A stretch of 26,538 bases of DNA from a virus, in IMG/VR virus record IMGVR_UViG_3300047322_000219, positions 1-26,538 of that record; one strand, written 5' to 3'. The position numbers and the translations under genes were made by a program. Every line of letters starts with the position of its first letter. Positions within the stretch are counted from its first letter, which is position 1. The notes beneath the pieces were generated by a model. The model was not told where the DNA came from and ran no database searches. It worked only from the letters and a program-made list of their open reading frames with translations. Positions 1,838 to 22,169 of the stretch are shown piece after piece.

Positions 1838-2110
1838 ATGCCGAACGCCCCCCGCACGCTATACGACGTCGCGCGCAAAATCTGCCATGACGCCGGGTAC
1901 CCGTGGACGGATCCGCGCACGGGCATCACGTATCCGCCGAAACGCTTTGTCGTGCATTCGACCCCGCCTAGTTCGGTCGGGCGCCGTGTCGTCGATCCGC
2001 ATCGCGTCGTCGACACGACGACCAATTCCACGATCGATAGTTATTCCTCGAAACGCGCCGCGACGATGCACGCGGCGTATCTGAACAAGTACGAAGGGAA
2101 AAGTAAATGA
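1838..2110 (+). CDS. hypothetical protein, first gene of the integrase operon
   Basis: A protein of 90 residues that I do not recognise. It begins with TLYDVARKICHDAG, similar in flavour to the opening of other small phage proteins, then has a Pro- and Val-rich middle and a C-terminal helix (SSKRAATMHAAYLNKYEG). There is no signal peptide or cysteine cluster. It starts 7 bases after a TATAAT, probably on a leaderless message, and its TGA overlaps the integrase ATG in an ATGA junction, so both proteins should be made together. Genes in this position sometimes encode a recombination directionality factor or a regulator, but the sequence itself does not show which. Confidence 0.7.
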   Translation: MPNAPRTLYDVARKICHDAGYPWTDPRTGITYPPKRFVVHSTPPSSVGRRVVDPHRVVDTTTNSTIDSYSSKRAATMHAAYLNKYEGKSK

Positions 2111-3885
2111 GTGCCCCGCAGTTCAAACCCCTGGGCGAGATCGGCGCGATCTACGTTCGCAAGTCGAACGAACAACGCGGCGTCAGTTCCGACGCGACGT
2201 CGATCGCCCGCCAGTTAGATCACGGGCGACAGTTCGCCGCGAAAAAGGGCATCACGATCCCCGACGAATACGTGTTCGTCGACGACGGCGTATCGGGCGG
2301 CGAGATTACAACCCGCGCCGAATTGGTCCGGTTGCGCGCGGTTGTTGGCAAGTCGTCGCCGTTCCAACATTTGATCGTTCCCGACCTGGACCGCCTGGGG
2401 CGCGAGTCCGTCGGAACATCTATGGTCATGAAGGATCTGGACGAAGCAGGGGTCCAGATTTGGGAATACATGCGCGGCGAACGCGTCGCCCTGGACTCGC
2501 CGACCGACGTGTTGGTTATGCAGGTTCGGAACTACGCGAACGCGATGCAACGCGCGTCGATTCGGATGCACGTCCTGGACAAATTGACGCGCAACGCGAA
2601 GGCGGGATACTCGACGGGCGGGCGTACCTACGGGTACGACAATCGCGACGTCATCGGACCCGACGGCAAACGGTCGCACGCGATCAAGGTACCGAACGAC
2701 GCCGCCGCGATCGTCCGTCGCATGTTCGACCGCGCCGACCCCAACGGGTCGGGACGCGGCAAACACACGATCGCAAAGGAACTGACCCGCGACGGGATCC
2801 CGACCCCGACGGGGCACGGCGAATGGAGTCCCGCGACGGTCGCCGGAATTCTCAGTCGCCCGATTTACAAGGGGGTCGGCGTCTATGGACGGACGCAACA
2901 AAAAAACAAATGGGGGTCGAAACAGTACCGCCGCAAACCCGCGGCGGAATGGATGGCGGCGACGGCGGCGGGTCCGGCGATCGTGTCCGTCGAACAGTGG
3001 GACCGCGTCAACGCGACCGCCGCGTCGCGAACCGCCCGCCTCGCCGATGCCGGTCCCCGCGGCGGGAAACTCCGCGACGGCGCGTCGCATTACCTTCTGA
3101 CGGGGAACGCGCGTTGTCCCTGCGGGGCGCCGTTCCACGTCATGTGGAAAAGTCGCGAACGCGGCGCCCGCCGCCCGTATTACGCGTGCTATGCCTACCA
3201 AAAACGGGGGCGCGCGACATGCGCGGCGACCAACGGGACGCACGTCCCCGTCGTCGACGTCGAACGCGCGGTCATCAACGGGATCACGGATGCACTCGCC
3301 CGCCGATTTGACCCCGCCGCGATCGCCGCGGAGTTCGTCGCCGAATCGACCCGCCGCCAGTCGAAGGGGGGCGCCGCGAAACTCCGCGTCGAGGTCGCGC
3401 GCCTGGAACGGGAACGGGCCAAGTACGCCGCCGCCATCGGCGCGGCGGGGAACGTCGACGTCCTGTTGACCGAACTGGCGAAGCGTACCGACCGCCTCGC
3501 CGTCGTGCGCGCGGAACTGGACGCCCTGACGACGCCGCGGGGTCGGGTCGCCCTGCCGCCCGCCAACGTCCTGGCGAAAAAGATCGCCGCCGAATTACGG
3601 ACGTTCCGGGCGACCCTGGGCGGGTCGAACATGGGCGCGGTTCGCGACGCCGTGCGCGCCGCCCTGGACGGTCCCTTGACCGTCGCCCCCGCCCCGTTGG
3701 TCGGCGCGAAAACGCGCCACGATCAGGCGAATACGCATCGGTTTGAAATTACCGGCGTGATTCGGGGGGATCGGTTCCTGCGCGCCATCGTCGGGCAATC
3801 CCCCATATTGGGTGCATCGGGTTCCCGACGCACTCAAATAGGGGGATCGATCCCCTTTACCGTCATCGTCGGCGCCGCCGCCTAA
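2107..3885 (+). CDS. int: large serine integrase
   Basis: A site-specific recombinase of 592 residues that integrates and excises the phage genome. The N-terminal resolvase domain (about 10-155) carries YVRKS with the nucleophile Ser20 and Arg18, DGVSGGE near 60, and DLDRLGRE near 94 with Arg97 and Arg100. The recombinase domain (about 165-310) includes GYSTGGRTYGYD and IPTPTGHGEWSPATV. A zinc ribbon follows with Cys337, Cys339, Cys361 and Cys372; the first pair is C-x-C rather than the usual CxxC. A coiled coil runs from about 424 to 470. An AAGGG ribosome site precedes the ATG. The last 30 codons contain the presumed attachment site, so the final 20 residues would be replaced by host-encoded sequence after integration. 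A hairpin lies downstream. Confidence 0.95.
   Translation: MSAPQFKPLGEIGAIYVRKSNEQRGVSSDATSIARQLDHGRQFAAKKGITIPDEYVFVDDGVSGGEITTRAELVRLRAVVGKSSPFQHLIVPDLDRLGRESVGTSMVMKDLDEAGVQIWEYMRGERVALDSPTDVLVMQVRNYANAMQRASIRMHVLDKLTRNAKAGYSTGGRTYGYDNRDVIGPDGKRSHAIKVPNDAAAIVRRMFDRADPNGSGRGKHTIAKELTRDGIPTPTGHGEWSPATVAGILSRPIYKGVGVYGRTQQKNKWGSKQYRRKPAAEWMAATAAGPAIVSVEQWDRVNATAASRTARLADAGPRGGKLRDGASHYLLTGNARCPCGAPFHVMWKSRERGARRPYYACYAYQKRGRATCAATNGTHVPVVDVERAVINGITDALARRFDPAAIAAEFVAESTRRQSKGGAAKLRVEVARLERERAKYAAAIGAAGNVDVLLTELAKRTDRLAVVRAELDALTTPRGRVALPPANVLAKKIAAELRTFRATLGGSNMGAVRDAVRAALDGPLTVAPAPLVGAKTRHDQANTHRFEITGVIRGDRFLRAIVGQSPILGASGSRRTQIGGSIPFTVIVGAAA
3798..3847 (+). other. attP: candidate phage attachment site (attP) inside the integrase 3' end
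   Basis: The 50 bases are an imperfect inverted repeat centred on the dinucleotide TT at 3822-3823. By hand, 19 of 24 positions pair across the centre. TCGGG (3817-3821) mirrors CCCGA (3824-3828), GTGC mirrors GCAC except for one changed base nearby, and CCCCC (3800-3804) mirrors GGGGG (3841-3845). Large serine integrases use attP sites of about this length with a non-palindromic central dinucleotide, and the phiC31 site likewise has C-rich and G-rich outer arms around a central TT. A terminator is unlikely because it lies within coding sequence and lacks a T-run. Confidence 0.7.
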
Positions 3886-3907: not shown

Positions 3908-3932
3908 GGACGCGGGCATCCCGCCCGCGTCC
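3908..3932. terminator. hairpin between convergent integrase and late operons
   Basis: GGACGCGGGC (3908-3917) and GCCCGCGTCC (3923-3932) form a perfect 10-bp GC stem with a 5-base loop in the 88-base gap between the integrase stop and the end of the minus-strand operon. On the plus strand it is followed only by CTTTCC, and on the minus strand there is no T-run, so it may pause or end transcription from either side without being a strong intrinsic terminator. Confidence 0.6.
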
Positions 3933-3973: not shown

Positions 3974-4318
3974 CTAGCGCGCCAAAACGACCAATACGGC
4001 GGCGGCGGTCGGCAACGCCCGCAACCATGCCACGTCAGGCGACCCGGGCGTATACCCGACGTCGACCCACGATTCGTTTTCCAGGACGTCGACGATGGTT
4101 GCGGGACTGACGGGGAACCGGGACGCCAACGCCCTGGCTTGCCGGGTCCGGGCGAGTCCGAACCCCTGCCGCGCCGCCCAGGTTCGGATGTCGGCGACGT
4201 CGGCGGGCGTCAGTTTCCGCCGCCGACCGGACACCCGGCAACCGCCCGTCGGCATCGTGACGCCGAACGCGCGCCCCTGGCGGCGTCCCGCGCGTTGCGC
4301 CATCCCGTAATCGGTCAT
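3974..4318 (-). CDS. HTH-like DNA-binding protein
   Basis: A protein of 114 residues. Residues about 34-88 read as a helix-turn-helix: RKLTPADVADIRTWAARQG, then ALASRFPVSPATIVDVLEN and SWVDV. That is the layout of small phage HTH domains where LAxxFxVSxxTI forms the turn and recognition helix. The first 33 residues are basic and probably disordered. The C-terminus is hydrophobic (AAAVLVVLAR), which is unusual. The ATG overlaps the preceding TGA in an ATGA junction, so it is translated with the upstream gene as the last gene of the late operon. An HTH protein in this place may regulate, but its target is unknown. Confidence 0.75.
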   Translation of the reverse strand: MTDYGMAQRAGRRQGRAFGVTMPTGGCRVSGRRRKLTPADVADIRTWAARQGFGLARTRQARALASRFPVSPATIVDVLENESWVDVGYTPGSPDVAWLRALPTAAAVLVVLAR

Positions 4319-5358
4319 CGCATCGCGAACACGGCGTGATGCGCGTACGGGGTCGACGGAACGATCGGCGGTTTGACGGGCGGGGGTTCGATCGGGGGTT
4401 TGGTCGGCGGCGGGTCGATCGGCGGTTCGACCGGCGGTTCGACCGGCGGTTCGACCGGCGGTTCGACCGGGGGCGTCACGGGCGCCGACAGGTCGACCCA
4501 TTGCGGGACCGCGGGCGCGACCTGGGCGGCGGCGCGCACGTAGCGGATCGCGCCGGTCGCGTCCATTGCCAGGACGACTAGATCGTTTGGTCCCTCGCCC
4601 TGGGTTGTCGACCATGCGATCCAGAGTTCGCCGCCGACGACGCGCATGTGCGCGTTGAACGTCAGGGGGCGCGCGTCGAGGATCACGCCGTGCGGGTCGC
4701 CGTCCGGTTGTAGGACGCATCCCCGCGATTCCGACCAATACAAGATCCAATCGACGCCGTTGAACGCTTGCAACTGAACCGCCTGGGCGTCGGCCAACGT
4801 CGGACGGGTCGGCGCGCGTCCTTCCGCGCCGCCGCGCCAAATGGCGACGCCCGCGCCGATCACCTGGACGTCGACGGGCGGGACGCCGGGAACGATGACC
4901 GCGCGCCCGTCAGGACTCACGATCGCGAGTCCGTATCCGTCCTGGCGATTCGGGACGTAGGCGATTGTTCCGTCAGGGGCGACCGACCGCGGTCCCGCCG
5001 TCCCCGCCGTCGCGAGATGGGCGCGCACTTCGTCGGGCGATCCCGCGATGCGCGATTCAAGGGAACCCCACAATCCGAACCCGGCCAACCATGCGACGAA
5101 CGCGCCGCCGCCGCCCGCCCAATCGTTCGCGCCGCGGGCGAGTAACGCGGGTCCGGCATGGGCGCGGCAAAACGCCAACGTTCCAGGCGACGGGTCGCGC
5201 AATTGTTCGATCGCCGTCCCGACATCGTCCAACCAACAACCCCCGCCGTAGGTTGCGAAGGGAAACGGCACGGGCGGATCGCCGCCAGGAGTCCAGAGGG
5301 ATCCTTGTAATCCGCCGCCGCCGCACACGACATACCCGCGCCCGTCCATGATCGGCAT
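4315..5358 (-). CDS. hypothetical secreted or tail-associated protein with Pro-rich repeats
   Basis: A protein of 347 residues that I do not recognise. Residues 1-270 are rich in Gly, Trp and short strands with repeated phrases (APDGTIAYV, SPDGRAVIVPG, GGELWIAWS) that suggest a beta-propeller-like fold. Residues about 290-335 are a Pro-rich linker made of VEPP repeats followed by IDPP, IEPP and KPPI variants. There is no signal peptide or lytic motif. A strong AAGGGG ribosome site precedes the ATG at 5358. Its place after the fibre and exported proteins suggests a host-interaction or tail-associated role, but this is inference. It overlaps the HTH gene by four bases. Confidence 0.7.
   Translation of the reverse strand: MPIMDGRGYVVCGGGGLQGSLWTPGGDPPVPFPFATYGGGCWLDDVGTAIEQLRDPSPGTLAFCRAHAGPALLARGANDWAGGGGAFVAWLAGFGLWGSLESRIAGSPDEVRAHLATAGTAGPRSVAPDGTIAYVPNRQDGYGLAIVSPDGRAVIVPGVPPVDVQVIGAGVAIWRGGAEGRAPTRPTLADAQAVQLQAFNGVDWILYWSESRGCVLQPDGDPHGVILDARPLTFNAHMRVVGGELWIAWSTTQGEGPNDLVVLAMDATGAIRYVRAAAQVAPAVPQWVDLSAPVTPPVEPPVEPPVEPPVEPPIDPPPTKPPIEPPPVKPPIVPSTPYAHHAVFAMR
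4421..4468. repeat. four perfect 12-bp tandem repeats
   Basis: GGCGGTTCGACC occurs four times head to tail with no mismatch; imperfect copies flank it on both sides. On the minus strand each unit encodes four residues of the VEPP linker, so copy-number change keeps the frame. Confidence 0.9.
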
Positions 5359-6391: not shown

Positions 6392-9300
6392 TCAACACGT
6401 CGGGTTTCCCCGATAGAGTAACCCGCCACTATCGACGCATAGGTACGCTTGATTCGTCCCGCTAAATTTTTGTAATCGGACGAAGATCGACGAATCCGCT
6501 TGGATGGTATTAGAGAACCCGCCGCCGCCCGCGTTGATTTGCATTCCCCCGTACACTTGCATCCCGTTTTGAATCGTCGCGTTGTACGCCGTCATAAACC
6601 CATTCGACGCGACGGCGAAATTCCCGTTGATGTTGATCGACCCGCCGCTAATCGTCGCGCTATTCAGAGTCGTACTGTTGATCGTGATCCCGTTGATCGT
6701 TCCAGCCGTGACGGTCCCCAGGTTCGCGGAGATGGCCGATAGCGACGTGACCGCCAACCGATCGGCGGTAATCGATCCCGATTGGATGTTGTTGGCGTTG
6801 ATCGTGCCCGCCGCGATGCGGTCGCCGGTAATCGTCGCCGACGCGATTTCGTTCGCCGTCAGGGTTCCGGTCGCGATGTTCCCCGCGACGATGGCACGGA
6901 CGCCGATTTCGTTCGACGTGATCGTGTTGGCGACCAACGCCCCCGCGGTAATCGTCCGACCCGCGATGTTGCCGCCGGTAATCGTCCCGCCCGCGATGTT
7001 CCCGCCCGTGATAGTCCCCGCGGCGATTTGGGTTGTCGTGATCGTCCCCGCGGCGATTTGCGCGGCGGTGATCGTCCCCGCGGCGATTTGCGCGGCGGTG
7101 ATTGTCCCCGCGGCGATTTGCGCCGACGTAATCGAGTTCGCGACCAAGCGATCGGCGGTAATCGAGTTCGCGCGGATATGTCCCGCGCCGATCTGTAATT
7201 GCATTTCGACGTTATCGATATGGAACGGGGTACAGGCCGTTACCTGACATGTCCAGTTCTGGATCGCCAGGGATACCCACGTCATCCCCTGCGGGACGGT
7301 ATAGACCCATTCGTAATGGGCCCACACGTTCCCTGGCATCGATGTATTGCTTGCACTGATATCCGTTGCATGGACATTCGCGACGTCGCCCGGGTTCAAA
7401 CAACAGGAACTGACCCGCACGTACTGGACGGCGGCGGTCGGTTGATTGCTTTCAAACGCGCGCACCCAAAATCCGCTAACGACGGTCGCCGCCGTGTTAT
7501 AGGAATCCATCGCGATTCGATACGTCGCGCCCGACGTCACCGGGATCGCGCGATATTCAATAATCGTGTAACTCCCCGCGGGCGGCGTGATGTACAACGT
7601 GCCCGGTCCCTTCGACCCACAACACGATTGGGTCGACGTCGGACCCGCGCCCGGATCCGCCGACCAACCCGCCAACGCTTGCGCTAACGTCATACCTTCA
7701 AACGCGCCATTTTTGATCACGTTATCCCCAAACCCCGTCGCGTCGAGTTCGGCAACCGTGATCGAATTCGCCAGGATGTTGGCGGCGGTAATCGTATGCG
7801 CGGCGATCTTGTTCGTCGTGATCACGCCGTCTTTAATCAGGGTCGACGGGACCATTTCTTCAATCCGTACGTCCTGGACTTCGATATACCCCGCGGCGGG
7901 GGACGGATAGTTGAGATAGATTTCAATGCTCGTATTGACCGTCCCCGTTGGGAATTGCGCGGGACCGATCGTCCCAATGTATTCCGTCCACGCGGTCGGA
8001 ATCGCGACGTTGTCAATGGCGATCCCGATTTCGCCGAGATACCCGCCATTACCCCCAAACGTGTTCATCCGAATCGACGAACTACTTACCGCGCCGCCGC
8101 CCGACCGCGCCCACGCGTGGATCCGATAGGTTTTGTGGACGTCAACCGGGGTTGATGGTTGACTCATCGCCGCTTGCGTCCCCGCGACCGATCGTAGCGA
8201 CGTCGTCCCGACGATCCCGTCAGTGATCGTCGTAATCACGGCTGGTGTAAATGCCGGATTCCCGGACGTTACGTACATGCTCGCATCCGACGGATTGGGG
8301 TCGGGGTTCAACGCCGCGCCGCCCGGATGCGCGGTAATGTTCAATTGCGCGGCGGTGATCGTGCCCGCGGTAATGTTGCCCCCGTTAATGTTGGTAATGC
8401 CCGACCCGTTGCCCGCGATCGTCAGGATCGCGCCGTCCCACGTTAGGCGGTTCCCTGCGGGATCGCCGATGCGGAGTTTATAGGCGCCCGCGTCCTGCCC
8501 CATCCAAAACCCTTTCCCGCCGCCGTACGTCGCGGGCAACGGGTTCCCCATGGCAACACTTGGCGCGGTCGGATCAATGCGGAAGACTTGCACGGGCGTT
8601 GCGTCGTAGAGGTCGATCGGGAGATTGCGGATTTCAAATGCCGCCGACGATAGACGGATCATCGGTTGCGTCAGTCCGACGCCGCCGCACAACATCCCGA
8701 ATTCCCCCGCCGACGCCGTGATCCCGTTCAGGTTCCCGAACCGGCATCGGGTCGCCGTGTTGGTCGCGATCGGCGAGGTCGTCCAGGTATTCGTTTGTAG
8801 GTACGGGGCATTCGATCCATTGGCGCCGTCGACCGCGGACATTTCGACGTACCCGTTTCCCGATACGCCCATGTCCTGAACTAATTGGTTGACGGGGACG
8901 ACGGACCCGCCTGTCATCGCCCCGCCGTTCGTGCCCGCGGCGCGCGTCAACGTCCACGATTGTTGCCCCGCGTTGGCGCCCGACCCGTCGGCGTACGCCG
9001 TCACGGATCCGACGCAGTCGGTAATCGTAAACGGGCCAAACGCCGCCCGCGTCAGGACGTGCAACACGACGAAATCGCCGGATTGGAACACGGGCGCGTC
9101 GCCGTACGTGGACGCGTCGTTGACCCATAGCGTTCCCGCCGCGCCCAGGGCGGGGCACGTAAACGGTTGCGCGACGGTCGAATACGATTTCGTGACGCGC
9201 AACGACCCTGCCAGGACGGACTCCGCGTCGGCGGTAAAGAGTTTCGCGCGCAATTCGTCGGCGAACACGTACCGGAAATCCGCGCCGCCCGTTTGGTTGA

Positions 9301-9886
9301 TCTGCCATCCCGCGACTTGCGACGCATAGTTCGCCGTTCCAATCGACGATCCCAATGTGACCGCGCCCGTAATGCCCGCCGTCCCTGCGATCGTCGCGTT
9401 GCCCCCAATCGCCGCGCCGCCCAGGATCGACGCGTTGCCGGAACGGTCGATCGACAGGGGCGTCACCAACGTCCCCAGGGCGTCGTTCAACGTCGACAAC
9501 GTCAGGGCGTTGCCGGTCACGCCGACCGCCCAGGATTTCAGATTCGCGCCCGCGCCCGTGTTCGTCAGGAGTAGCGCGGGCGATGCGTTGGCGATCGTTT
9601 GATTCGCCGTCCAGACGTTCGCGACCGATAACCGCGGGATGATGCCCCAACCCGTCGACGTGAACCCCGACGTTTGTTTTGTGTAGACGTCGCCGGTATC
9701 CGTGCGGACGTAGGTATCGCATCGATTGCCGTTGACCGTGTTCGTCGGGTCGCCCGCGCCGCTAGTGATCAGACATGGACCCGTGACGAGTCCGAACCGA
9801 TCGGCGTAGATCGTTTGGGCGCGCGTCGAGGTCGCCGCCGCCAGGAGTAGCAGGAACGCCAGGACGACGACGGATCTATTCGACAT
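6392..9886 (-). CDS. tail-tip fibre / receptor-binding protein with repeat shaft
   Basis: A protein of about 1,164 residues. The N-terminus looks like a signal peptide (SVVVLAFLLLLAAATS, ending T-R-A-Q). A Gly/Thr-rich shaft follows, with two beta-sandwich-like modules at about 520-680 and 720-905 that resemble carbohydrate-binding folds (GDNVIKNGAFEG, FHIDNVEMQL). The second module has unusual Cys pairs (QSCCGS, SSCCLN). From about 905 to 1055 runs a ten-residue repeat, consensus GTITAAQIAA, and the C-terminus is a short Gly-rich head ending in PTC. Position after the tape measure and hub, and this shaft-plus-tip plan, mark it as the central fibre that touches the host. An alternative TTG at 9892 would add two residues. 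Confidence 0.85.
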   Translation of the reverse strand: MSNRSVVVLAFLLLLAAATSTRAQTIYADRFGLVTGPCLITSGAGDPTNTVNGNRCDTYVRTDTGDVYTKQTSGFTSTGWGIIPRLSVANVWTANQTIANASPALLLTNTGAGANLKSWAVGVTGNALTLSTLNDALGTLVTPLSIDRSGNASILGGAAIGGNATIAGTAGITGAVTLGSSIGTANYASQVAGWQINQTGGADFRYVFADELRAKLFTADAESVLAGSLRVTKSYSTVAQPFTCPALGAAGTLWVNDASTYGDAPVFQSGDFVVLHVLTRAAFGPFTITDCVGSVTAYADGSGANAGQQSWTLTRAAGTNGGAMTGGSVVPVNQLVQDMGVSGNGYVEMSAVDGANGSNAPYLQTNTWTTSPIATNTATRCRFGNLNGITASAGEFGMLCGGVGLTQPMIRLSSAAFEIRNLPIDLYDATPVQVFRIDPTAPSVAMGNPLPATYGGGKGFWMGQDAGAYKLRIGDPAGNRLTWDGAILTIAGNGSGITNINGGNITAGTITAAQLNITAHPGGAALNPDPNPSDASMYVTSGNPAFTPAVITTITDGIVGTTSLRSVAGTQAAMSQPSTPVDVHKTYRIHAWARSGGGAVSSSSIRMNTFGGNGGYLGEIGIAIDNVAIPTAWTEYIGTIGPAQFPTGTVNTSIEIYLNYPSPAAGYIEVQDVRIEEMVPSTLIKDGVITTNKIAAHTITAANILANSITVAELDATGFGDNVIKNGAFEGMTLAQALAGWSADPGAGPTSTQSCCGSKGPGTLYITPPAGSYTIIEYRAIPVTSGATYRIAMDSYNTAATVVSGFWVRAFESNQPTAAVQYVRVSSCCLNPGDVANVHATDISASNTSMPGNVWAHYEWVYTVPQGMTWVSLAIQNWTCQVTACTPFHIDNVEMQLQIGAGHIRANSITADRLVANSITSAQIAAGTITAAQIAAGTITAAQIAAGTITTTQIAAGTITGGNIAGGTITGGNIAGRTITAGALVANTITSNEIGVRAIVAGNIATGTLTANEIASATITGDRIAAGTINANNIQSGSITADRLAVTSLSAISANLGTVTAGTINGITINSTTLNSATISGGSININGNFAVASNGFMTAYNATIQNGMQVYGGMQINAGGGGFSNTIQADSSIFVRLQKFSGTNQAYLCVDSGGLLYRGNPTC
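6741..7190. repeat. about fifteen 30-bp tandem repeats in the fibre gene
   Basis: The DNA falls into consecutive 30-base units in phase with ten-residue protein repeats. Units at 7041-7070 and 7071-7100 are identical, and their neighbours at 7011 and 7101 differ by a few bases; outer units are more diverged. The near-identical core suggests recent duplication by slippage or recombination, and copy-number changes would keep the frame and alter shaft length. Confidence 0.85.
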
Positions 9887-11606
9887 AGCCAACCCCGAAC
9901 ACGTCGGCGCCCGCCGCCGACGGTTGCAATTGCAGTTCGTAAAATTTCGCGCCCGCCGCCAGGGTCACGGAAAAGACGACCGTTTGCCAGATCGTCGACG
10001 TCACGGCGGCGGATACGCCCGCGCACGCGACCGCGTCCGACGCGTTGTAGAGTCGCGCGATCACGGATACGCCCGCCGCCATCGATCGCAACCGGGCGGT
10101 AATGGTTGCCGTCGACGACCCGCGCGTCACGGTATCTAACTGGACTTGAATGGCGCCCTGGCCGATCGCCGACCCACCCGACGCCGGAACCCAATCGCCC
10201 GTGTTGTTCGTCCGTCGCGCTTCCAACCCGGACCCGCCCAGGAAGTAGGACGACCGCCCGGACCCGCCGCCGCCCGTGCCGGGGGTTCCAGGACTCGCCG
10301 CGGGCGTCACGGTTGCCGCCGCGACCGCGCCGCCGCCCGACCATTGTTTGAATAGATTGTCGGGCGCCGCGCCGCGCAGGGTCGCCCCTTCGATCGCGGT
10401 AATCGTCCGTTGCATCGCTTTTTCGCGACTGTTCGCCGTCTGAACCGACGTGATCAAATAGGTTCCGTTGATCCCGCGCGCCGGGACGTTGATCACTTGC
10501 ATCATGCCGGGATGGGCGCCGATCTGTTCCGTCAGGTACGTCACCTGTTTCGGGACGACGATCGCCGTCGACAGATACGCGTTCCCGAACGCGACGGCGT
10601 CGGGTTTGGTAAACACGTCGGGTAACGCGACCGCCAGATCCCACACGCCGTGGATCGCTTGTTCGGCAGTGTTGTTGACGACGACCGCGAACGGATATTG
10701 CGCGACGTAGTCGAGGTAGAACGGGTCGCCGTTGGCGAAGGGGGCATCGCCCGCGCGTTGATAGAGTCCATGGGTTGCCGCGTCCCATTGGACGGGCCAC
10801 TGTGATCCCGTGTTGCCGGGTTCGTACGGTCCCAGGGGGTTGTCGGCGCCGTGCATATGGTACGTCCCGGGCCAATCGTTCGTTGCCGGAACGTCGGTAA
10901 TCCAATGCGTCGTGACGCCGTCGCCGATCCAGTTCTGGCGAATGCGCGACGTCCCCGTGCCCGCCTGGACGATGACGCGGTTGGCGTACTGCCCCGACGT
11001 CCGTTGGGGTTCGACCGTCACGTCGCCGATCACATGCCCGTCGCCCGCCGCGACGTTGAAGGGGGCGGCGATCGTCCCTGGCAGGAATGCCCGCAGGGTT
11101 TTCGCGTAGTCGATTTCCCAGACGTACCCGCCCGCCAGGACGCACGCTTCGTTGAGTGCATCGCGGGTGACTTTGTCGTAGCTGTACGGCATCGCGGGTA
11201 ACGCCGGTCCCGCGACCTGGGCGGCGTCCAACGTGACCCCTGGCAGGTACACCAACATCGCGACCAAAAACGCGTGCAACGTACCGGCGGGCACGTTCGC
11301 GCCGACGTGTTCCCGTTCGGCGATGCCCCCGTAATCGACCCCCTTGATCGCCGTGACGATCCGCCACAGTCCTAACCCGCCGACGCCCGATTCCGCGACG
11401 CCGTCGATCGTTCCGCCAAAAATGCGGACCCCGTTTTCCGTGATGACGATGTCGGCATCTAGGGCGGGGCGGTACGTGCCGTCGAGGGAATAGACCGCGA
11501 TCGACAACGTGTTGCGCGCGTTCGCGGTTTCGGAAATCTGCAACGACCCCAATTGGAACCGTTGCGCGACGCCCGCGATCGTCAGGACGTAGGCGGGGAC
11601 GGGCAT
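9876..11606 (-). CDS. tail hub / distal tail tip protein
   Basis: A protein of 576 residues placed directly after the tape measure gene, where siphoviruses encode distal tail and hub proteins. The N-terminal part (MPVPAYVLTIAGVAQRFQLG, then ENGVRIFGGTIDG near 57-69) and the segment YDKVTRDALNEACVLAGGYVW (about 143-163) are typical of hub-like proteins that recruit the fibre. A Gly/Pro/Ser linker lies near 435-460, and the last 110 residues form a likely beta sandwich (TATITARLRSMAAG, WQTVVFSVTLAAGA) that may bind sugars. The ATG is 5 bases after the tape measure stop with a weak TAGGA site. It overlaps the fibre gene by 11 bases. Confidence 0.75.
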   Translation of the reverse strand: MPVPAYVLTIAGVAQRFQLGSLQISETANARNTLSIAVYSLDGTYRPALDADIVITENGVRIFGGTIDGVAESGVGGLGLWRIVTAIKGVDYGGIAEREHVGANVPAGTLHAFLVAMLVYLPGVTLDAAQVAGPALPAMPYSYDKVTRDALNEACVLAGGYVWEIDYAKTLRAFLPGTIAAPFNVAAGDGHVIGDVTVEPQRTSGQYANRVIVQAGTGTSRIRQNWIGDGVTTHWITDVPATNDWPGTYHMHGADNPLGPYEPGNTGSQWPVQWDAATHGLYQRAGDAPFANGDPFYLDYVAQYPFAVVVNNTAEQAIHGVWDLAVALPDVFTKPDAVAFGNAYLSTAIVVPKQVTYLTEQIGAHPGMMQVINVPARGINGTYLITSVQTANSREKAMQRTITAIEGATLRGAAPDNLFKQWSGGGAVAAATVTPAASPGTPGTGGGGSGRSSYFLGGSGLEARRTNNTGDWVPASGGSAIGQGAIQVQLDTVTRGSSTATITARLRSMAAGVSVIARLYNASDAVACAGVSAAVTSTIWQTVVFSVTLAAGAKFYELQLQPSAAGADVFGVGYVE

Positions 11607-20261: not shown

Positions 20262-22169
20262 CTACGCGGCGTACGTCTGAACGGTGAACTGGACGGACCC
20301 CGGGCGGGCGCGTTTCCAGTTGATGATTCGGTCGGCGCGGAGTCCGACCAAATTGTTTTGCCACAGGGACGTCATCACGACGGTTGCGTCGGCGGGGTTC
20401 ATCGGCGCGGAGTCCATTTGTACGGACGCCTCGCGCGATACGTCGATTTCGATCCCGCCTTCGTCGGCGATCAAAATCCCTTCGCCGTTGATTAGCACGA
20501 CGTTGTTTCCCAACGCTTGCGACGCGATTGCCTTGTACCCCAGGATCGATCCGCCCAGGGGCGACATCAACGGGAACAACGGTTGCCCCAACGGGTTCAA
20601 CGCCGACGTCAACGCCAGGGCGTTGGTTTCCGACATCAACAACGTCGCTTGCGCGGTCGACATGTTCAACGCCAACATCGCCGCCGCCATTGCTTGAATG
20701 TCGGTTCGGGCGTTGGCGGGCGTCGTCCCCGCCGACGTGATCGGCGTGACGCCGTTGGTCACGGATCCGGGCGACACGTTCGCGATCGCCGCCTTCGTCG
20801 GATCGGTAAATTCGACGTCCAGGAACGACGCGATCCCCTTCATCATGTCGTTACGGATGACGTCTTCCGCCGACGGCGTCGACGTGCGGGCGAGTTCCTC
20901 TGAGATGACGATGATCCCCGCGCACTTCGCGATCGTTAGCGTCGTCGCGCTAAATGCGAGTTTCCCGACAGGCTTTGGGGCGCCCTGCCCGACCCACTGA
21001 TACGTGCCGCCGCCCGTCTGTTGCGCGACGGAAATATTGAACGGCACATGACGCATTCCGGGGATCTTCGACAACACGACTTGCGCGCGAAGGAGTTCTA
21101 GGAATTCCGACGCCAGGGGCACGATCGGCGCCAACGGTCCCGCCCAACCGACGTCGGACGTCGTCCCGATCGCGGTCGCCGCCTTCAACGCGAGTTCCAC
21201 TTCGGGGCACGAATCCCGCCACTGTTTCGCAATTTCGATCGCTTCCATCCGGTTCCCGCGCGCCATGATCATCGCGCGCACATAGCGCACGAACGCGGTT
21301 GCGGGCGGCAGGTTCGACTTGACCGTGATTACGCGACCCGCGGCGGGCGGCGGCGTCGCGGCGCCGCGTTGCGTTGCCGCCAGATCCCCGGGCGTCGCGC
21401 CGACGGGCGCGGCGGCGGCGAGGTTTGCCGCCGACATCGCGTTGAGTCGAACAAGATGCTGATCGATCCCTTTCAGGTCGGTCGCGAGTCCGTCGTATTC
21501 GTCGGCCTGGGCGGGGTCCAACGTGACGCCGCCATCGTTTGCTGCCGTCATGAGTTCGGTTTGGCGCGCGACCTTCGCGGCGCGCGTCGCTTCCCAGGTT
21601 TTGATTTGTTCGCCGATCTTGTTCATGGGGGACGCGTCCTTCAGGGCGCGTACAACGGGAATCCCTGTAACGCCAGGGGTATGACGGGCGCCCAACGCGG
21701 CGCGGTCCAACGCTTTGATCGTGTCGATCGTCGCCGACGCGTTCGCCGGAATCGTGACCAACGACAGTTCCAGGACTTCCGATTTCATAAACCGGAACGC
21801 TTGCGCGTCCTTCATCCAGGTTTCCTCGATCGACCGGAACCCGATCGATACCGCCGCCATGAGTCCCGCTTTGATCGACTGCCATGCCTCATCGATCCGA
21901 TCCTTCAACGTGCCCGGGTCGTCAACGACGGGTAACGTCGCTTCAAAATCGAGTCCGTCGGCGGTCGGCGGGAAAAACCGGACGGACCCGACGGGTTTGG
22001 TCGCGTCGTGGTACAGCAACAGGGGCACGGGGTTTTTGAAACTGATGCCCAGGGGTTCGACGATGTCGCCCAGGCGGTCGGGTTCGGGCGTCGACGCCGT
22101 GCCGGAAATCACCCGCGTAACCGGGTCGGCGGATTTCACCCGGAGAACCGAATACGCGCGTTTCAACAT
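20262..22169 (-). CDS. prohead protease fused to HK97-type major capsid protein
   Basis: A protein of 635 residues containing two proteins normally made separately. Residues about 1-160 are a U35-type prohead protease: the His motif LLLYHDATKPVGSV (His54), the Ser motif AAVSIGF (Ser108) and LELSLVTIPANA with Glu134. Residues about 182-280 are a helical scaffold or delta region (NKIGEQIKTWEATRAA, GLATDLKGIDQHLVRL). From about 285 the HK97 coat fold begins (TAFVRYVRAM), with VPFNISVAQQTGGG, SEELARTS, E-loop-like and P-domain strands, and LGYKAIASQAL through RADRIINWK. The protease would cut the scaffold from the coat during maturation. An ATG at 21626 (residue 182) could also start the scaffold-coat part alone. 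Confidence 0.93.
   Translation of the reverse strand: MLKRAYSVLRVKSADPVTRVISGTASTPEPDRLGDIVEPLGISFKNPVPLLLYHDATKPVGSVRFFPPTADGLDFEATLPVVDDPGTLKDRIDEAWQSIKAGLMAAVSIGFRSIEETWMKDAQAFRFMKSEVLELSLVTIPANASATIDTIKALDRAALGARHTPGVTGIPVVRALKDASPMNKIGEQIKTWEATRAAKVARQTELMTAANDGGVTLDPAQADEYDGLATDLKGIDQHLVRLNAMSAANLAAAAPVGATPGDLAATQRGAATPPPAAGRVITVKSNLPPATAFVRYVRAMIMARGNRMEAIEIAKQWRDSCPEVELALKAATAIGTTSDVGWAGPLAPIVPLASEFLELLRAQVVLSKIPGMRHVPFNISVAQQTGGGTYQWVGQGAPKPVGKLAFSATTLTIAKCAGIIVISEELARTSTPSAEDVIRNDMMKGIASFLDVEFTDPTKAAIANVSPGSVTNGVTPITSAGTTPANARTDIQAMAAAMLALNMSTAQATLLMSETNALALTSALNPLGQPLFPLMSPLGGSILGYKAIASQALGNNVVLINGEGILIADEGGIEIDVSREASVQMDSAPMNPADATVVMTSLWQNNLVGLRADRIINWKRARPGSVQFTVQTYAA

Follow-up and report, generated by a model that had tools for sequence, protein, structure and literature searches.

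The viral genome record IMGVR_UViG_3300047322_000219 (positions 1 to 26,538, the whole stretch analyzed here and called the window below) possesses a gene, int, at positions 2107-3885 of the plus strand, which encodes a large serine integrase of 592 amino acids (aa) and very probably contains, within its last codons, the phage attachment site (attP, 3798-3847) of that same enzyme. The integrase carries the Pfam domains Resolvase, Recombinase and Zn_ribbon_recom, matches the PHROG 95 integrase family (E = 2e-65), and yields a structural model that aligns with the SPbeta integrase 9dxh (Z 20.4). The catalytic serine motif Y-x-R-x-S is present, with Y16, R18 and S20 each at least 90% conserved among 36 relatives, and the coiled coil of large serine integrases is represented in the model by long helices at residues 420-446 and 450-475.

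A repeat search placed an inverted repeat at 3798-3821 and 3824-3847, whose 24-nucleotide (nt) arms are complementary at 19 of 24 positions (79%) and are separated by a 2-nt spacer, TT. An earlier reading of the letters alone (the sequence-only reading) had described a near-symmetric 50-mer in the integrase coding end, with a central TT, a perfect 5-bp inner pair and GC-rich outer arms of 5 bp; the site was confirmed at exactly 3798-3847, the inner pair (TCGGG/CCCGA) is indeed perfect, and the perfect outer run was measured at 7 bp (ATCCCCC/GGGGGAT). No other 50-mer of the window matches this symmetry, the runner-up scoring 17, and the background within int is 6.7 +/- 2.4 of 24. A score of at least 19 arose in one of 60 Markov shuffles of the window, the chance expectation being 0.017 per window. 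The palindrome occupies codons 564-581 of the 592-aa open reading frame (ORF), that is, residues 565-580 and parts of two neighbors, and its center, TT at 3822-3823, falls at codons 572/573, 63 nt before the int stop. Serine integrase attP sites are known as imperfect inverted repeats of 45-50 bp with a central dinucleotide (PMC5311408), and the window site has this form, with a center that is not self-complementary, as such an attP requires. At third codon positions, the GC content is 0.81 in the body of int, falls to 0.44 across the codons of attP, and is 0.91 in the tail; because of this drop, a second constraint, other than that of the protein, seems to act on the DNA of these codons.

A palindrome at this position could instead act in RNA, as a transcription terminator or another hairpin at the int 3' end. 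However, a terminator scan found nothing at the palindrome, and a separate, perfect 10-bp hairpin, itself a possible terminator, was found by the repeat search after the stop codon, just 3' of int (3908-3932, plus strand), although the terminator scan reported none there. Moreover, in the relatives described below the site is centered on the point of exchange between host and phage DNA, and its symmetry is lost in the copies at the integrated int end (attL), all of which makes a hairpin function most improbable.

Equivalent sites are present in free phages of the same integrase clade. A single-protein scan detected no relative among the viral contigs, while wider alignments did find relatives, the closest of which (L051) encodes an integrase 51% identical to that of the window, on a contig with 81% identity in TerL; its palindrome scores 20/24 and is centered 51 nt before the int stop. 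Palindromes near the int end were also found in L074 (20), L212 and Microcystis phage Mae-JY30 (19 each), L097, L114 and L128 (18 each), and L071 (17). As a separate observation, TerL proteins 98-100% identical to that of the window occur in five other IMG/VR records (L012-L016) with differing sample numbers, and the first of these (3300046739) has the same sample number as L054, another phage of the integrase clade.

Integrases from the genome scan, from Acidobacteria, Nitrospira and other metagenome-assembled genomes (MAGs), are mostly 28-41% identical to that of the window. In 30 of the 41 genome relatives examined, the int reading frame extends into, or right across, an antisense tRNA gene, the orientation being the same in every case; the target is mostly tRNA-Glu, but also tRNA-Ala, -Ser, -Arg or -Gln, and the last int codons of these relatives are read from the antisense tRNA gene. 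Judged from sequence, this layout is the attL form to be expected if attP lies within int. A tRNA-Ala pattern proved too specific, with a single place in each matching genome. On one acidobacterial contig (PMZR01000055.1), two related integrases, L132 and L159, lie about 15 kb apart, one of them tRNA-ended and the other with a phage-type -QAA end.

In the complete genome of N. moscoviensis, a 20-bp direct repeat, TGGTGTCCCCAACGGGATTC, is located at int, with a second copy 17.2 kb away, and the rejoined site has its center, AA, inside this repeat, at the same position as predicted from the free phage L211. Sites were rejoined for eight elements, namely that of N. moscoviensis, two from MAGs (whose halves are on different contigs, the pairing being inferred) and five from viral records whose ends resemble tRNA-Met, and the rejoined sites are centered on the predicted crossover. 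Their symmetry averages 13.6/24 (n = 8), as against a mean of 8.8 and a range of 5-14 in attL sites (n = 22). In tRNA-targeting relatives, the P half provides the final ten bases of the tRNA gene, which is thereby restored. The prophage boundaries of relatives, which had been set beforehand as the test of the attP claim, fall at the same place, inside the int 3' end.

These boundaries also bear on the proposal that the true attP is at another place near int, the palindrome being a chance structure or an accessory integrase-binding site. In most phages attP is indeed located beside int and not inside it (PMC5311408); however, a 4-bp overlap between the int start and the upstream ORF leaves no 5' gap, every other 50-mer of the window scores 17 or less, and the known boundaries of relatives lie at the palindrome position, so this proposal is very unlikely. 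The architecture of a serine integrase attP, as claimed from the letters alone, therefore finds support in two observations on relatives, namely equivalent palindromes in the free phages and tail swapping in the integrated elements. Throughout the clade attP lies inside int, so that integration swaps the tail of the integrase.

The sequence-only reading had further taken the symmetry of both arms as a sign of an unintegrated attP. That the window is a linear metagenome contig would be compatible with an integrated or grounded prophage, the site then being an attL or a far-end attR. However, its symmetry of 19/24 stands against 5-14 in the 22 attL sites, its tail (..AAA) is of the phage type and not a tRNA antisense, a tRNA search found no tRNA in the window, and phage structural genes continue beyond the site. 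The window is thus almost certainly not a prophage end; with its symmetry and with phage genes on both sides, the site is supported as an unintegrated attP. The further suggestion of a circular or packaged genome goes beyond the data, since the record is classed as linear and is probably a fragment, related contigs running to 37-58 kb.

Several observations weigh against the attP assignment. No attB (the host site), attL or attR of the window phage was found in the viral contigs or in 396 genomes of the phylum of one acidobacterial MAG, and its P half, which has GTGCATCGGG before TT, does not show the signature of a tRNA 3' end seen in the tRNA-targeting relatives, a TGG located ten bases ahead of the core. 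Among the rejoined sites, those of the tRNA-Glu type are weakly symmetric (11-12/24; others 12-17), and the site of Rhizobium phage RR1-A scores just 12/24, so symmetry alone misses some members of the clade. In addition, one MAG (L242; G428, contig 85, 144) has the L143 integrase end in an attP-like form, with the conserved tail motif in a different frame from int.

A tRNA target for the window phage was rejected on the TGG-position test, and because its P half lacks this signature, the phage probably uses a different type of target. Genome searches revealed no lysogen of the window phage, and the viral contigs contained no exact match to either attP half-site. In the 396 genomes, three integrases were found at E<=1e-60, none of them more than 38% identical, and TerL relatives 44-47% identical occur in three genomes of the same phylum; the host phylum suggested by these searches is a weak guess.

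The part of int beyond the predicted crossover (3823-3885, plus strand) encodes residues 573-592, a tail ending in ..VIVGAAA, which would be exchangeable according to its translation and to comparable tails in free phages and at the attR of integrated elements. Free-form tails (endings given up to the stop codon) include ..VKFTGKAA, ..VAFKGRAA and ..FRGLVRAA, beside ..IPFTVIVGAAA in the window. The attR-side endings, read in the int frame, resemble them: ..AIPFQGVVQAA in N. moscoviensis (read by hand), ..VTVLAA in Nitrospira CR1.2, and ..GRFAA and ..SDVAA in two viral records. An -AA end occurs in 17 of 29 free or rejoined forms (a hand-compiled list in which relatives are not independent) and in none of the attL ends tabulated for relatives, which is a tendency and not a test; other endings met were IGC, IEV, ATL and LSL.

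In the AlphaFold2 model of the window integrase (m607b0cc512e5; 34 sequences, predicted local distance difference test (pLDDT) score 82.9), residues 565-578 have pLDDT below 50 and residues 581-589 (codons at 3847-3873, plus strand) form a C-terminal beta-strand, while the model of the attL-form integrase of N. moscoviensis (m2e68bc9e7dd2) is of low confidence from residue 548 to the end and has no C-terminal strand. The attP codons are thus predicted, from shallow alignments, to encode a disordered linker ahead of a terminal beta-strand. The conserved fold seems to be complete at about the start of attP, before the exchangeable tail, because the alignments end within residues 553-564 for the SPbeta and Bxb1 integrases of known structure and at 575 for some phiC31 chains.

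According to the proposed mechanism, the integrase, binding as a dimer to both mirrored half-sites, would pair them with a host attB, then cut around the central TT and exchange strands; the crossover is placed at TT by symmetry, by analogy, and by the location of the relatives' center within the attL/attR repeat. The P half-site (3798-3821) would remain with int as attL, as does the int-proximal half in relatives, while the P' half-site (3824-3847) would be carried to the opposite end of the prophage as attR, along with the codons of residues 573-592. The int ORF would then persist with its tail replaced by host-encoded sequence and its catalytic core left working, and excision would restore the original tail.

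The reason for such an arrangement may be that the tail limits the lifetime of the enzyme, as does the ssrA-like tag of the BPs repressor (PMC4557955), or, alternatively, that the strand affects directionality; the loss of a degradation tag or of an inhibitory strand on integration is plausible from the sequences and models. More tentatively, and with the odds somewhat against it, two integrase isoforms can be envisaged: an infecting form, in which the C-terminal beta-strand and -AA end limit lifetime or block one reaction, and a lysogen form without them, so that stability or directionality would record the integration state. A neutral overlap of attP and int is also possible.

In the surroundings of int, the upstream ORF (1838-2110, plus strand; 90 aa) has no Pfam or PHROG match and overlaps the int start codon (ATGA); its position makes it a candidate for a directionality factor or a regulator. 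A 635-aa ORF (20262-22169, minus strand) matches both a prohead protease (Peptidase_S78) and a major capsid protein (Phage_capsid), and is, by these matches, a protease-capsid fusion, to which PHROG 617 also corresponds. Tandem 12-nt repeats (CGGCGGTTCGAC) are present at 4354-4479 within the ORF 4315-5358 (minus strand), as well as 30-nt repeats at 6768-7127 within the tail-fiber-like ORF 6392-9892 (minus strand).

The attP sites of phiJoe, phiC31, Bxb1 and A118 are similar to that of the window in size and symmetry and in lying close to an integrase with the same domain arrangement (PMC5311408). However, the phiJoe attP is located 18 bp outside the int gene (PMC5311408), whereas that of the window lies inside the coding sequence. 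The recombinases of Mae-JY30 and RR1-A, whose site centers are 51 nt before the int stop, are akin to the window in this respect, but these integrases are 26-29% identical to that of the window, and their P half, unlike the window's, matches a tRNA 3' end. In integration-dependent immunity of mycobacteriophage BPs and relatives, attP is also present in a coding gene near its 3' end, and a C-terminal ssrA-like tag on the viral form limits the lifetime of the product through proteolysis (PMC4557955); there, however, the gene encodes the repressor, while in the window it encodes a serine integrase, for which a degradation tag is hypothetical. Archaeal suicidal integrases (SSV1, pTN3, pT26-2) likewise have the recombination target inside their own gene, but these are tyrosine enzymes, and integration splits and inactivates their gene; a 2021 review calls them exclusive to archaea (PMC8371274). 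The window integrase, by contrast, has serine domains, its attP begins at residue 564-565, past the SPbeta/Bxb1 fold match, and only the tail beyond the conserved fold would be exchanged. No earlier description of a serine integrase with attP inside int was found in the open-access papers searched, a coverage too narrow to prove novelty.

With these results, a palindrome recognized by eye becomes a testable attP for a new integrase, and a broad bacterial clade comes into view, with members in Acidobacteria, Nitrospira, Rokubacteria, alphaproteobacterial plasmids and phages, whose integrases have their own tails edited by integration. Many recombinase C-termini in genomes, such as ..VVAEEGLEPPTRGL and ..VASPTGFEPV, are accordingly antisense tRNA and not native ends, so that cloning the gene from a lysogen yields the tail-swapped form. 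For members of this clade, the int gene alone is enough to locate attP, and control of stability or directionality by the tail is open to direct testing. The isoform switch, if true, would give serine integrases a counterpart to integration-dependent immunity.
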